Origin: Klebsiella variicola
Lineage (GTDB): Bacteria > Pseudomonadota > Gammaproteobacteria > Enterobacterales > Enterobacteriaceae
Assembly: GCF_000828055.2 (NCBI RefSeq)
Contig: NZ_CP010523.2
Coordinates: 2,728,001-2,792,000 of the forward strand
DNA: 64,000 nucleotides
Reading direction: 5' to 3'
Shown: positions 23,105-28,220 of the stretch, piece after piece
How the letters are laid out: every line of letters begins with the position of its first letter
Position numbering within the stretch: the stretch's first letter is position 1
Translations under genes and position numbers: made by a program
The notes under the pieces: model-generated
Database searches by the model: none
What the model was told of the DNA's origin: nothing
What the model saw: the letters and a program-made list of their open reading frames with translations, nothing else

Positions 23105-23860
23105 TTATGTAAAGCGATACACGCCGTTGCCGACGCGAAAGCGCTGCCCCTTAAGCGCCGGGTTGGCGACGCGAAACACCAGTTCGGTCAGCTGGTTAGC
23201 GGGTCCTTCGCGGAAAGTAAACCACTGGCCGCCCACGTCCAGTCCCTGCTCCCCCTGTGGCGGGAAGCCCAGCAGCGCCTGCCAGCGATCGCGTACCGCC
23301 TGCGGATTGACCACCTCGAACACCGCCTGCTCAAGCGCAATGTCGCCCAGCGGGTGCGGCACGTCCAGTTCCTGAGCGCGCAGCCGCGCCAGCCGGGTGG
23401 TATCGTCTTCTCCCCACTGCAGCACAAATGGATAGACCAGCCCGTCAGTGTCGCCATCGATGGTGAAGATCCGCCAGCGGATGATATTGCCCTGCGGATC
23501 GTTGCGCTGACCATCGACAATCGGTGATACCGCCAACCCCTTGCGACGCAACTGGTCATGAGTGGCCTCGATGTCGTCGCTGCGCAGCGCCACCCGAAAC
23601 AGCGCTTCGTTCTCCGGCAGCAACCGCTCGGCATCCCGCGAAAGCAGGAACCTGTCCGTCGCGGCGCGCAGTTCGTCCGGGTCGGAAATGGCGAGGAATT
23701 CGATATAGGTCAGGCCAAAATAGCTCAGCGCATTGCGGGTTCCCCACCCCGGATGTCGCCCTCCGGCCACCGCCCGCAGCTGCTGGTCGGCAAAGGTCTG
23801 AATGGCCGCGTCCGGCTGATTCACAAACTGTACTGCGTGGTCCCACTGCAAGGTTGCCAT
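23105..23860 (-). CDS. VOC/glyoxalase-like domain protein
   Basis: The 251-residue protein has two consecutive beta-alpha-beta-beta-beta modules. Module 1 includes HAVQFVNQPDAAIQTFAD and YIEFLAISDP; module 2 includes IALEQAVFEVVNPQAVRDRW and QWFTFREGP. It resembles the glyoxalase-like PF13468 family. No reaction can be assigned. It is cytosolic. It ends just after the AraC gene, tail-to-tail with it. The ribosome site (GGGAGAGA) supports the start. Confidence 0.75.
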   Translation of the reverse strand: MATLQWDHAVQFVNQPDAAIQTFADQQLRAVAGGRHPGWGTRNALSYFGLTYIEFLAISDPDELRAATDRFLLSRDAERLLPENEALFRVALRSDDIEATHDQLRRKGLAVSPIVDGQRNDPQGNIIRWRIFTIDGDTDGLVYPFVLQWGEDDTTRLARLRAQELDVPHPLGDIALEQAVFEVVNPQAVRDRWQALLGFPPQGEQGLDVGGQWFTFREGPANQLTELVFRVANPALKGQRFRVGNGVYRFT

Positions 23861-24370: not shown

Positions 24371-24634
24371 TTATTTTTTCTGCCAGTTTGCCCAGGGATC
24401 CGCTTTCTCCACCGGCGCGTCATCATCAAGGGAGGCGAGATACATGGCCTCCACCTCTTTGCGCGCCCACGGCGTCCGGCGGAGAAATTTGAGGCTGGAC
24501 TTAATGCTGGGATCGCTTTTAAAGCAGTTAATGTTGACCTGGCGGGCCATTTCCGCCCAGCCATAGCGCGCCACCAGGGCATTGAGCAGCGCTTCCAGCG
24601 TCACGCCGTGCAGGGGATCTTTCGAGCTGTGCAT
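24371..24634 (-). CDS. VF530-family DNA-binding protein (DUF2132)
   Basis: An 87-residue alpha-helical protein with the family signature [22 protein letters not shown], and later [23 protein letters not shown]. The family has been proposed to bind nucleic acid. I start at [10 protein letters not shown] (24634); an in-frame ATG seven codons upstream (24655) is possible, but neither has a strong ribosome site. It is the first gene of a pair with the cupin. Confidence 0.8.
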
Positions 24635-24844
24635 TACGATACGTCCGTTCCGCATTAAAAAAGTGCGCCTACCTTACTGGCTCTGACCGACGGGCGCAAC
24701 CGGCTTCATTACGCGCTTTGCGCCTATATCTATTTAACGCAAAAGCACTGAACCCCGCGCGGTCATAAATTAGAAAATAACGTTATTGGTTGCTTATTTG
24801 GCCTTGAGGCAAGCTGTGTTCAGCCCCGGACAGAGGAAATCACC

Positions 24845-24976
24845 ATGCGCTGCTGTTGTGCCCGAACCCTGAACCTGAATCAACCCATAACTTATTACCC
24901 CGTTTTCGGAGAACACAATGAACGCGACCACCCTGCCGATTCTCGACCTGGCCCGCTACGCGGACCCCGCGAATAA
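24845..24976 (+). CDS. polycysteine leader peptide ORF, overlaps the oxygenase start
   Basis: A 43-codon ORF with an excellent ribosome site (AGAGGA, seven bases before the ATG). The peptide begins MRCCCARTLN: three consecutive cysteine codons at positions 3-5. It runs past the oxygenase ATG at 24918 in another frame and stops at 24974-24976, 59 bases inside that gene. A 12-base palindrome AATAACGTTATT (24776-24787) lies in the presumed promoter. Runs of Cys codons in short upstream ORFs of sulfur genes are known as cysteine-responsive attenuators in mycobacteria. I infer a similar role here, with cysteine starvation altering ribosome movement and downstream expression. Confidence 0.55.
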   Translation: MRCCCARTLNLNQPITYYPVFGEHNERDHPADSRPGPLRGPRE

Positions 24977-25946
24977 AGCGGCCTTCCTGGCCGACCTGCG
25001 TCACGCCGCCCGCGACATCGGCTTCTTCTATTTGATCAACCACGGTGTGGACGACGCGCTTCAGTATGAAGTTCAGCGCCAGTCTCAACGCTTTTTTGCT
25101 CTCGATGAGGCGCAGAAACAGCAGGTGGCAATGATCCACTCCCCCCATTTTCGCGGCTATAACCGCGCGGCCTCAGAGCTGACGCGCGGCCAGCCTGACT
25201 GGCGAGAGCAGTTTGATATCGGCGCCGAACGTCCGGCGCTGACCCTCAGCGACGACGCCCCGCGCTGGCAGCGCCTGCAGGGTCCGAATCTGTGGCCTGC
25301 CGCCCTGCCGTCGCTTAAACCAGTATTACTTCACTGGCAACAGCAGATGACCCAGGTGGGCATCCGCCTGCTGCGCGCTTTTGCCGAAGCCCTGCAGCTC
25401 CCGGAGAATGCCTTTGACCGGCTCTACGGCGAGAAACCCAACGAGCATATCAAACTGATCCGCTATCCCGGCCAGCAGGAGACCCAAAGCAGCCAGGGCG
25501 TCGGCGCCCATAAAGATTCCGGTTTCCTCAGCTTCCTGCTGCAGGACGAACAGAAAGGACTGCAGGTAGAGGTCGCGCCTGGACAATGGATCGACGCCGT
25601 GCCGCTGGCCGGCAGCTTTGTGGTCAATATTGGCGAACTGCTGGAGCTGGCGACCAACGGGTATTTGCGCGCCACCGTCCATCGCGTGGTGTCGCCGCCG
25701 GCGCAGCAGCAGCGCCTCTCCATCGCTTTCTTCCTCGGCGCCCAGCTTGACGCGGTGGTGCCGGTTTACACCCTGCCGCCCGAGCTGGCGCGTGAAGCGC
25801 GAGGTCCGGACAGCGACCCGCACAATCCGCTGCTACGCGATGTCGGCTGGAATTATCTCAAGGGCCGTCTGCGTTCCCATCCGGACGTGGCGGAACGCTA
25901 CTATCAGGACGTGTTTCGCGAACGCGCCGAGCAATTGATCGTTTAA
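24918..25946 (+). CDS. 2-oxoglutarate/Fe(II) oxygenase, isopenicillin N synthase family
   Basis: A 342-residue soluble enzyme. The N-terminal DIOX_N part includes LRHAARDIGFFYLINHGV. The iron site is H198-x-D200 (GAHKDSGF) and H255 (ATVHRVV), with the R266-x-S268 cosubstrate motif (RLSIAF). It is first in an operon with a MetQNI-like importer, so it probably oxidises the imported compound, plausibly an organosulfur or amino acid derivative. Its start lies inside the polycysteine leader ORF. GGAG sits about seven bases upstream. Confidence 0.88.
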   Translation: MNATTLPILDLARYADPANKAAFLADLRHAARDIGFFYLINHGVDDALQYEVQRQSQRFFALDEAQKQQVAMIHSPHFRGYNRAASELTRGQPDWREQFDIGAERPALTLSDDAPRWQRLQGPNLWPAALPSLKPVLLHWQQQMTQVGIRLLRAFAEALQLPENAFDRLYGEKPNEHIKLIRYPGQQETQSSQGVGAHKDSGFLSFLLQDEQKGLQVEVAPGQWIDAVPLAGSFVVNIGELLELATNGYLRATVHRVVSPPAQQQRLSIAFFLGAQLDAVVPVYTLPPELAREARGPDSDPHNPLLRDVGWNYLKGRLRSHPDVAERYYQDVFRERAEQLIV

Positions 25947-25969: not shown

Positions 25970-26772
25970 ATGAAATATGCCGCTTTTAAACTGGCAGGGG
26001 TCGCACTGTCTCTTTCTCTGGCATGGACGTCTGCCCAGGCTGCCGCGCTGCGCGTCGCCGCGGACCCGGTTCCCCACGCGGAGATCCTCAACTACATCAA
26101 AAAAATCGATCCCAGCCTCGATCTGAAGGTGGTGGAGCTGACCAGCGGGGTCAACGCCAATGAACTGCTGGCCAGTGGCGATGTGGATGCCAACTACTTC
26201 CAGCATGTTCCCTATCTGAAGGATCAGGAAAAAGCGCTGGGTAAAACCTTTGCCGTCGCGGCCACCGTGCATATTGAGCCGCTGGGAATTTACTCGCATA
26301 AGCATAAAGATTTCTCATCACTGCCGGAAAACGCCACCGTGGCGGTGCCGAATAACACCACCAACCTGAGCCGGGCGCTGTTCCTGCTGCAGGCGCAGAA
26401 GCTTATTAAGCTGGATCCCAAATTTACCGACCCGGCCACCACCCTGGCGACGCCGAAGGATATTGTCGAGAACCCGAAACACCTGAAGATTCTGGAGATT
26501 GAATCACCGCAGATCCCGCGTTCCCTCGACGATGTCGACCTGGCGGTGATTAACGGTAACTACGCGCTGGAAGCCGGCCTGGTGCCAGCGAAAGATGCCC
26601 TGGGGCTGGAAAGCGCCGAGCATAATCCGTACGCCAATATTCTGGTGACCACCCCAGCCCTGGCGAATGACCCGCGCATTAAGGCGCTGGCGAAAGATCT
26701 GACGTCACCGCAGGTGGCGGAGTTTATCCGTAAAACCTACAACGGCTCGGTGATCCCGGTGGCCCCTCAGTC

Positions 26773-26776
<4 letters not shown>
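25970..26776 (+). CDS. MetQ/NlpA-family substrate-binding protein
   Basis: A 268-residue periplasmic binding protein of the methionine-type ABC importer family (segments [31 protein letters not shown] and [21 protein letters not shown]). Unlike E. coli MetQ it has no lipobox cysteine. The signal peptide ends [13 protein letters not shown] and looks like a signal peptidase I site, so it should be soluble. Position between the oxygenase and the MetN-like ATPase makes it the receptor of that system. The ligand is probably a methionine-like or other sulfur compound. Confidence 0.85.
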
Positions 26777-27548
<772 letters not shown>

Positions 27549-27564
<16 letters not shown>

Positions 27565-28220
27565 GCTGGGAAGATTTGTGGCCGTTATTACTCGACGGCA
27601 CGCTGGATACGCTTTATATGGTGGGCCTGGCGGCCCTGTTTACCGTTCTGATCGGGCTGCCCACCGGCGTGCTGTTATTTATTTCCCGCGCCAACGGGCT
27701 GGCGCCGATGCCGAAACTGAACGCGCTGTTAGGCGCGGTGATCAACATCGGCAGGTCGCTGCCGTTTATCGTGCTGCTGATCGCCCTGATCCCCTTTACC
27801 CGCCTGATCGTCGGCACCACGCTGGGCAGCACCGCCGCCATCGTGCCGGTGACCATCGGCGCCTTTCCGTTCTTTGCCCGTCTGACGGAAAACGCGCTCG
27901 ACGAGGTGGACTACGGGAGAATCGAAGCCATTCTGTCGATGGGCGGTAACGTCTGGCACGTGATTTTTAAATCCCTGCTGCCGGAAGCCCTGCCAACGCT
28001 GCTGGCCGGGATCACGCTGACCATCGTGATGCTGATTGGTTTCTCCTCCATGGCCGGTGTGATCGGCGGCGGTGGACTCGGCGACCTCGCCATCCGCTAC
28101 GGCTATCAGCGGTTTAATAATGAAGTCATGTTTGGCACGGTGCTGATCCTGGTGGCGATGGTGCAGGGCGTGCAAATGGCCGGCGATCGGCTGGTGCGCA
28201 GCCTGGCCCACCGTCGCTAA
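27549..28220 (+). CDS. MetI-like ABC transporter permease
   Basis: A 223-residue inner-membrane permease with five to six helices and the EAA-type loop ([20 protein letters not shown]). The MetI-typical segment [24 protein letters not shown] is also present (two parts). The ATG at 27549 follows GGGAGG by six bases. It completes the Q-N-I set begun at 25970. Its stop lies ten bases from the end of the convergent nitronate monooxygenase gene. Confidence 0.88.

Follow-up and report, generated by a model that had tools for sequence, protein, structure and literature searches.

In the genome of Klebsiella variicola, a short open reading frame (ORF) with three adjacent Cys codons near its start overlaps the beginning of an oxygenase gene, which raises the question of whether this upstream ORF (uORF) serves as a cysteine sensor for the operon that follows it and, if so, by what mechanism. 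The window is the whole stretch of 64,000 nucleotides that was analysed (contig NZ_CP010523.2, forward strand, 2,728,001 to 2,792,000), and the positions below are counted from its first letter.

Ortholog sets

Orthologs of the oxygenase gene were compared in two sets. For the whole-genome set, 392 genomes of the family were searched and 113 of them contained oxygenase orthologs; with the orthologs of an earlier search added, upstream DNA of 124 loci was obtained. This set leaves out L020 and two partial matches (G062 and G349), and L083 was placed by hand. The named set consisted of 80 loci, the best 80 of 341 found. Some species occur in both sets, which are therefore not independent of each other. 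A uORF of the 124-locus set was counted when CysCys occurred within its first 11 codons, and uORFs in frame with the gene were skipped there; the counts for the named set and for the Cys-blind choice included them. In the Cys-blind choice, the best SD-led ATG uORF of 10–60 codons was taken from each named locus with Cys disregarded. The other 368 genomes of a 369-genome sample of the class contained no oxygenase ortholog at E 1e-70. Outside the family and within the same order, the ortholog G038, which is L020, was 56% identical and had one internal TGA, and no MRCCC-type ORF was found there; G032, also outside the family, contained an oxygenase relative at 37%.

The leader uORF

An earlier note on this DNA had described a 43-codon ORF that begins with MRCCC, follows a ribosome site and extends 59 nt into the oxygenase gene out of frame, and its coordinates and frame were confirmed. 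The uORF starts with an ATG at 24845, has 43 sense codons beginning with MRCCCARTLNL and ends with a stop codon at 24976. As the oxygenase ATG is at 24918, the two ORFs overlap by 59 nt in different frames. The SD sequence of the uORF, GAGGA, lies 7 nt 5' of its ATG, and the short ORF is thus not leaderless in sequence. The features of the leader region are as follows.

24762..24792, + strand: conserved promoter-region block ATAAnTTAGAAnnTAACnnTATTGG, probable activator site (0–3 mismatches in 62 of the 80 named orthologs, the best 80 of 341)
24833..24837, + strand: uORF ribosome-binding site GAGGA (from the sequence; GAGG there in 17 of 18 Klebsiella/Raoultella orthologs; L008 has GGAG)
24845..24976, + strand: leader uORF MRCCCARTLNLNQPITYYPVFGEHNERDHPADSRPGPLRGPRE, 43 codons (from the sequence; CysCys uORF at the same place in orthologs)
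24851..24859, + strand: three Cys codons TGC TGT TGT (codons 3–5), proposed sensor (from the sequence; Cys enrichment in the Cys-blind choice)
24862..24866, + strand: CCGAA, which could pair with the complementary oxygenase SD region and sequester it, weakly supported (folds; swap tests with p = 0.007 and p = 0.024; no excess folding energy)
24905..24911, + strand: TTCGGAG with the oxygenase SD, GGAG at 24908–24911 (from the sequence)
24918..24976, + strand: overlap of uORF and oxygenase gene in different frames (84 of the 86 whole-genome orthologs with a uORF share the register)

At three mismatches or fewer to the window's own sequence, the promoter block was found once in the window's genome. 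It was also considered as a CysB/Cbl site and rejected, as a matrix of the block, run against seven E. coli sulfur-gene regions, gave weak matches only, including one near cysJ. Between 24600 and 25200, no sigma-70-type promoter was found by consensus and no intrinsic terminator was found on the + strand, while there was one on the - strand. A search of 24500–25300 against Rfam returned no match at E up to 5.

Operon products and their sulfur content

Downstream of the uORF, the earlier note had placed an Fe/2OG-type oxygenase and a methionine-type importer.

24918..25946, + strand: Fe(II)/2OG-type oxygenase, IPNS-like, 0 Cys and 2 internal Met (Pfam PF14226 and PF03171)
25970..26776, + strand: NlpA/MetQ-like periplasmic binding protein, 0 Cys and 0 internal Met (profile matches; Cys/Met counts)
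26773..27564, + strand: MetN-like ABC ATPase, 4 Cys and 1 internal Met (72 of the 80 named loci, the best 80 of 341, have a relative downstream)
27549..28220, + strand: MetI-like ABC permease (BPD), 0 Cys and 9 internal Met (72 of the 80 named loci, the best 80 of 341, have a relative downstream)

The oxygenase assignment held, as the domains DIOX_N (124.3 bits, cut-off 27.3) and 2OG-FeII_Oxy (82.1 bits, cut-off 23) were both recognized by Pfam; no match was found in NCBIfam. The best-scoring solved relatives were 9ovh and 6jyv, and the protein contains HKD...H and RLS motifs, which we take to be those of an IPNS-like Fe(II)/2OG oxygenase. The importer is indeed a relative of MetNIQ, but its components scored below the curated NCBI cut-offs for MetN (320.8 of 499.7 bits), the MetQ/NlpA family (172.2 of 228.85) and MetI (208.5 of 212), so that methionine is not established as its substrate. 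Relatives of the binding protein, the ATPase and the permease were all found downstream of the oxygenase in 72 of the 80 named loci (the best 80 of 341). For the nitronate monooxygenase and LysR genes of the window, relatives were present in just 10 of the 80, all of the Klebsiella/Raoultella type. A comparison of the oxygenase gene with 20,395 E. coli records yielded no match by megablast or by blastn with 11-base words.

Proteins of sulfur starvation tend to be sulfur-poor. In 78 of the 80 named loci (the best 80 of 341), the oxygenase had no Cys, and the mean number of Met besides the start was 2.75. Among 56 mechanically called ORFs of the window, whose median Cys+Met content was 3.6%, the binding protein tied for the lowest content and the oxygenase was third lowest. 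The ATPase (4 Cys) ranked 8 and the permease (9 Met) ranked 38, sharing the sulfur-poor trait incompletely. The Cys and internal Met numbers of E. coli proteins were 0 and 0 for TauA and for the part of TauD compared, 0 and 3 for SsuA, and 1 and 3 for SsuD. However, low Cys is not limited to starvation proteins, as E. coli CysA (0 and 6), CysK (1 and 5) and the unrelated PdxK (2 and 4) are also low in Cys, and the signature is therefore suggestive and not proof. With that reading, the Cys-free and Met-poor composition of the oxygenase and the binding protein suggests, independently of the uORF, that the operon is linked to sulfur supply.

Similar to these two proteins, the product of a window gene at 23105–23860 on the - strand, a Glyoxalase_3-domain protein of 251 amino acid residues, is sulfur-poor with no Cys and no internal Met. 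Three of the 80 named loci (the best 80 of 341) have a relative no more than 6 kb upstream, and only in L186 is it adjoining.

Conservation of the Cys codons

An ORF starting with MRCCC was found at -73 in 16 of the 18 Klebsiella/Raoultella orthologs, and the ORFs at -73 of the other two began with MRRCCR (L009) and MRRCCC (L015). A CysCys uORF was at the leader position in 76 of the 124 whole-genome loci and in 56 of the 80 named loci (the best 80 of 341). The genera included Klebsiella, Raoultella, Kosakonia, Shimwellia, Trabulsiella, Phytobacter, Kluyvera, Pseudocitrobacter, Citrobacter, Franconibacter, Dryocola, Buttiauxella, Cedecea, Sodalis, Brenneria, and Biostraticola, among others. 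Fifty of the 56 named CysCys uORFs passed a strict SD rule, and the remaining six had weaker or shifted purine runs. The residues other than Cys were unrelated, as in MRCCCPRTLN, MQRCCCHPAF, MHLHCCCTRS, MLPNRCCAQP, MTEYCCCCAA, MSERGCCRAP, and MTGYRCCCGS, and 74 CysCys uORFs fell into 23 groups at 70% nucleotide identity. Most uORFs had 2–4 adjacent Cys codons, and the first CysCys ranged from codon 3 to codon 8 in the 76 uORFs, which is not near the stop.

The Cys-blind choice gave an SD-led uORF in 53 of the 80 named loci (the best 80 of 341). CysCys was present in 50 of the 53, and the other three were from Serratia. At positions 2–9 of these uORFs, 145 of 424 codons were Cys codons vs. 6 of 529 later ones. 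With one representative per group (n = 23), Cys accounted for 67 of 184 codons at positions 2–9 and 5 of 251 later codons before the gene, a contrast that is partly built in because the representatives were selected for CysCys. The codons 3–11 after the first Cys had undergone 10–22 changes per nucleotide position on the oxygenase tree; two anchor codons in this count were conditioned on the CysCys search, and the Cys-blind choice alone was free of such conditioning. The Cys codons of the 76 uORFs were 185 TGT and 45 TGC, compared with 13 TGT and 22 TGC in 10 window genes. The alignment check that had been proposed earlier thus came out positive, with the Cys codons, the ATG and the out-of-frame overlap kept far beyond the surrounding sequence. 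As judged from the compared loci, the Cys codons and the reading frame of the uORF are preserved while nearly all else in it has changed.

In 51 of the 56 named loci, the pair of Cys codons was directly preceded by an Arg codon (CGC or CGT).

The chance background was estimated from 2.36 Mb of strand, comprising the 80 named loci (mostly 13 kb), seven E. coli regions and the window. The rule of an SD, an ATG, CysCys within 9 codons and an ORF of less than 60 amino acid residues retrieved 74 start sites, which are 61 distinct ORFs. Fifty of them were at the leader in 50 loci, one was the window's own, one was a displaced copy in Yokenella and 9 were elsewhere. No CysCys uORF was found within 400 nt of 14 E. 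coli sulfur genes.

The pattern ATG-MGN-(TGY)3 also occurs at other places in 20 genomes of the genus. Among 20 such other sites inspected, 14 were inside same-strand ORFs of at least 120 amino acid residues, 5 were inside long opposite-strand ORFs and one (L065) was in neither. They included all five such sites of the window's genome, which were rejected as leaders, four being inside same-strand ORFs and the fifth being L065. At L065 (C1:4332910-4332924, - strand), ATG-CGA-(TGC)3 begins an 8-codon ORF, MRCCCSNI, about 120 nt 5' of a 484-codon ORF. It lies in no ORF of 100 codons or more and has no SD at the usual distance.

Register and spacing

The uORFs started 61–100 nt 5' of the oxygenase ATG, and their register relative to the gene was nearly invariant. 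It was shared by 84 of the 86 uORF-bearing whole-genome loci (76 CysCys, 2 CRC-type and 8 RLY-type), the exceptions being L112 and L139, by all 56 CysCys uORFs of the named set (the best 80 of 341) and by all 53 Cys-blind uORFs. The avoided registers are those in which the uORF would stop at the gene start (ATGA) or would be fused to the gene. Parsimony on an oxygenase tree built from 95 residues gave 19 changes of the uORF-to-gene length in the whole-genome set, of which 17 were multiples of three; in the named set, all 15 changes were multiples of three. With 7 further uORFs added to the named set, there were at least 18 length changes, and all 11 distances were in one register. Under free length change, roughly one third would be expected to be multiples of three. 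Given that nearly all length changes are multiples of three and register exceptions are few, the frame matters as far as the gene start.

The Cys run ended 52, 55 or 58 nt before the gene ATG in 52 of the 56 named loci and 61–73 nt before it in the other four, although the uORF start moves. By the dimensions of the ribosome, one stalled at the Cys run would leave room for another initiating at the oxygenase. The stop codons of 73 of the 76 uORFs were at +32 to +62 inside the gene, and three were earlier. Most uORFs had 35–47 codons. Shorter ones of 13–28 codons, all with the Cys run, were found in L109, L112, L139, L231, and L232. In L109, L112 and the MAG loci L231 and L232 the uORF ends before the gene, and in L139 it ends at +4 with an ATGA-type overlap. 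Selection on the length of the overlap was not supported, as the first stop in that register was at a median of +56 in loci with a CysCys uORF vs. +53 in loci lacking one.

Orthologs without the standard leader

CysCys was absent from the leader position in 24 of the 80 named loci (the best 80 of 341), and 16 of the 80 had no polycysteine uORF within 140 nt. Pseudescherichia, Escherichia sp. ESNIH1 and Pluralibacter retained the operon without a polycysteine uORF and kept the gene with its own SD. No polycysteine uORF was found in the loci of Erwinia, Pantoea, Rahnella, Rouxiella, and Chimaeribacter or in a locus filed as Pseudomonas pharyngis. Four Buttiauxella loci had CRC...C uORFs in the same register as the CysCys uORFs. 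Three named Serratia loci (L241, L247 and L253) had a uORF without Cys, MLIIRLYGSP, also in the same register, and no MetQNI relatives were found downstream within the stretch. In Yokenella regensburgei (L263), the polycysteine uORF MQRCCCYPSSKEDENTSIP starts 200 nt 5' of the oxygenase and ends well before the gene. Judged by its position, this uORF has apparently been displaced by an insertion and would provide a natural test of the overlap.

Variant uORFs in the same register were present in L132, L133, L136, L137, L151, L156, L158, L159, L162, and L172 as well as in the three named Serratia loci. The variant peptide itself looks conserved (MLIIRLYGSP, MLILRLYGCPVFIG and MFVIRLYCCPVF), with CC, GC, GS, GG or SG at the place of Cys.

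Possible mechanisms

On balance, we lean slightly towards the uORF being the cysteine-sensing leader of an organosulfur-scavenging operon, in which occlusion of the oxygenase start would be relieved by stalling at the Cys codons. With charged Cys-tRNA, ribosomes would translate the uORF through the SD and start codon of the oxygenase gene out of frame, occluding or out-competing initiation there, and would terminate a few dozen nt into the gene. With uncharged Cys-tRNA, the leading ribosome would halt at the Cys codons, far enough upstream to free the oxygenase start, and would block further initiation at the uORF. Cys starvation would then permit synthesis of the oxygenase and the binding protein, neither of which requires cysteine. 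In some lineages, including Klebsiella, a further effect of the stalled ribosome may be to disrupt a weak pairing of the Cys-codon region with the SD and start of the oxygenase. Because the register excludes both a stop at the gene start and fusion, and lets ribosomes cross the SD and start codon, occlusion relieved by stalling is preferred. It is possible, at somewhat less than even chances, that ribosome traffic is all that the start switch requires. In that case, a register-locked uORF with a Cys brake 52–58 nt upstream would control Cys-free proteins with no terminator, riboswitch or required hairpin.

Of the 18 Klebsiella/Raoultella leaders, 14 have a minimum-energy fold in which the surroundings of the Cys codons pair with TTCGGAGAACACAATG or the corresponding sequence. 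Over the 23 groups, cognate partners also paired better than swapped ones, with duplex energies of -18.1 vs. -16.9 kcal/mol (p = 0.007) and 8.1 vs. 6.6 expected pairs (p = 0.024). Such pairing would favor an erm-type translational attenuation, in which the SD and start of the oxygenase are held in a helix with the Cys-codon region until a ribosome stalled there breaks it. However, the folding energies of the leaders were no better than those of dinucleotide shuffles (mean z -0.14, s.e. 0.20, 23 representatives). Moreover, three measures were not special in comparison with swapped leaders, namely opening of the start region by a modelled stalled ribosome (p = 0.20), the gain in SD opening (p = 0.23) and SD pairing without a ribosome (p = 0.23). 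Given that it also leaves the held register unexplained, the erm-type scheme is rather unlikely. It is improbable that the leader ribosome governs transcription attenuation by Rho or a terminator. The spacer is G-poor (mean 16% G) and, with 36–44% C in Klebsiella, Trabulsiella, Kluyvera and several other group representatives, would suit Rho. Its C content is just 12–24%, however, in 12 of the 23 representatives, all of which keep the Cys codons, and the + strand of 24600–25200 has no intrinsic terminator. The suggestion of the earlier note that stalling alters Rho access at the oxygenase start thus found no evidence, the G-poor spacer being C-rich in part of the groups only.

Overlapping ORFs can couple in bacteria, and uORF ribosomes that deliver or prepare oxygenase initiation, as the ATGA-type overlap of L139 at +4 might allow, would make cysteine starvation lower expression. 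This is quite improbable, as 84 of 86 loci avoid the register with a stop at the gene start, 73 of 76 uORFs end 32–62 nt inside the gene, orthologs without a polycysteine uORF retain the gene's SD, and the sign would be wrong for a scavenging operon. The ribosome tunnel is of such a length that, in most uORFs (35–47 codons), residues 3–8 would emerge at about the time that the ribosome crosses the oxygenase start, where a nascent N-terminal Cys cluster could sense a metal or a thiol-reactive agent. The uORFs of 13–28 codons nevertheless retain the Cys run, and the gene content and sulfur-poor products point to sulfur, which makes such a sensor very improbable. We find it hardly credible that the uORF is a chance ORF whose Cys codons are kept by RNA-level constraints alone. 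TGT repeats are able to pair with the oxygenase start region, yet TGT and TGC alternate within the Cys codons (185 vs. 45), the frame has survived no fewer than 15 inferred length changes, and 52 of the 61 rule-matching ORFs in 2.36 Mb of strand are leader ORFs.

Comparison with known systems

In mycobacteria, leaderless short polycysteine ORFs with a C-terminal Cys cluster are found 5' of sulfur-related genes (Shell et al., 2015, PMC4633059), and the mycobacterial polycysteine uORFs are described in two further papers as mediating cysteine-responsive attenuation (PMC9031893, PMC13236596). Similar to these attenuators, the Klebsiella uORF is short and has adjacent Cys codons ahead of an operon. 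Different from the mycobacterial leaders, it is SD-led, has its Cys codons at the N-terminus and overlaps the gene start in a locked register. The cysteine-responsive attenuation of mycobacteria was reportedly studied by experiment by Canestrari et al. in 2020.

The cys and cbs operons of Actinobacteria are preceded by leader ORFs with runs of Cys codons near the stop and without a conserved terminator hairpin (PMC1262725). The Klebsiella leader is similar in its run of Cys codons and in lacking a conserved terminator hairpin; it differs in the place of the Cys codons, the genes and the phylum. The predicted uORFC-8-2 motif 5' of cysS in Rhodobacterales has tandem Cys codons usually at codons 14–15, two stems and a terminal U-run (PMC8632094). 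It shares with the Klebsiella leader the tandem Cys codons in a uORF of Proteobacteria. Different from that motif, the Klebsiella leader has N-terminal Cys codons, no terminator and an oxygenase downstream. Cys-codon leaders are thus known in Actinobacteria and predicted for Rhodobacterales cysS, and the leader read from the Klebsiella sequence differs in lineage, gene, SD start, N-terminal Cys, absence of a terminator and locked overlap. In searches of open-access literature, no description of the locus and no Cys-codon leader for Enterobacterales was found. If the proposed mechanism is true, the leader would be a simple natural switch made of a register-locked overlapping uORF in relatives of E. 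coli. It would also point to a sulfur source as the substrate class of an oxygenase-importer operon that is common to many enterobacterial genera.

The leader differs from attenuators of the his and trp type in having no intrinsic terminator on the + strand of 24600–25200. Similar to tauABCD of E. coli, the operon combines an oxygenase with an ABC importer, and TauA and the part of TauD compared are likewise without Cys and internal Met. The oxygenase and importer of tauABCD belong to other families than the Klebsiella ones, and, different from the Klebsiella operon, tauA has no upstream polycysteine uORF. Inhibitory uORFs of eukaryotes, such as those of ATF4, overlap the main start codon out of frame and act by scanning and reinitiation. 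Similar to ATF4-type uORFs, the Klebsiella uORF covers the main start out of frame; different from them, it is proposed to work by direct SD-led initiation and codon-specific stalling.
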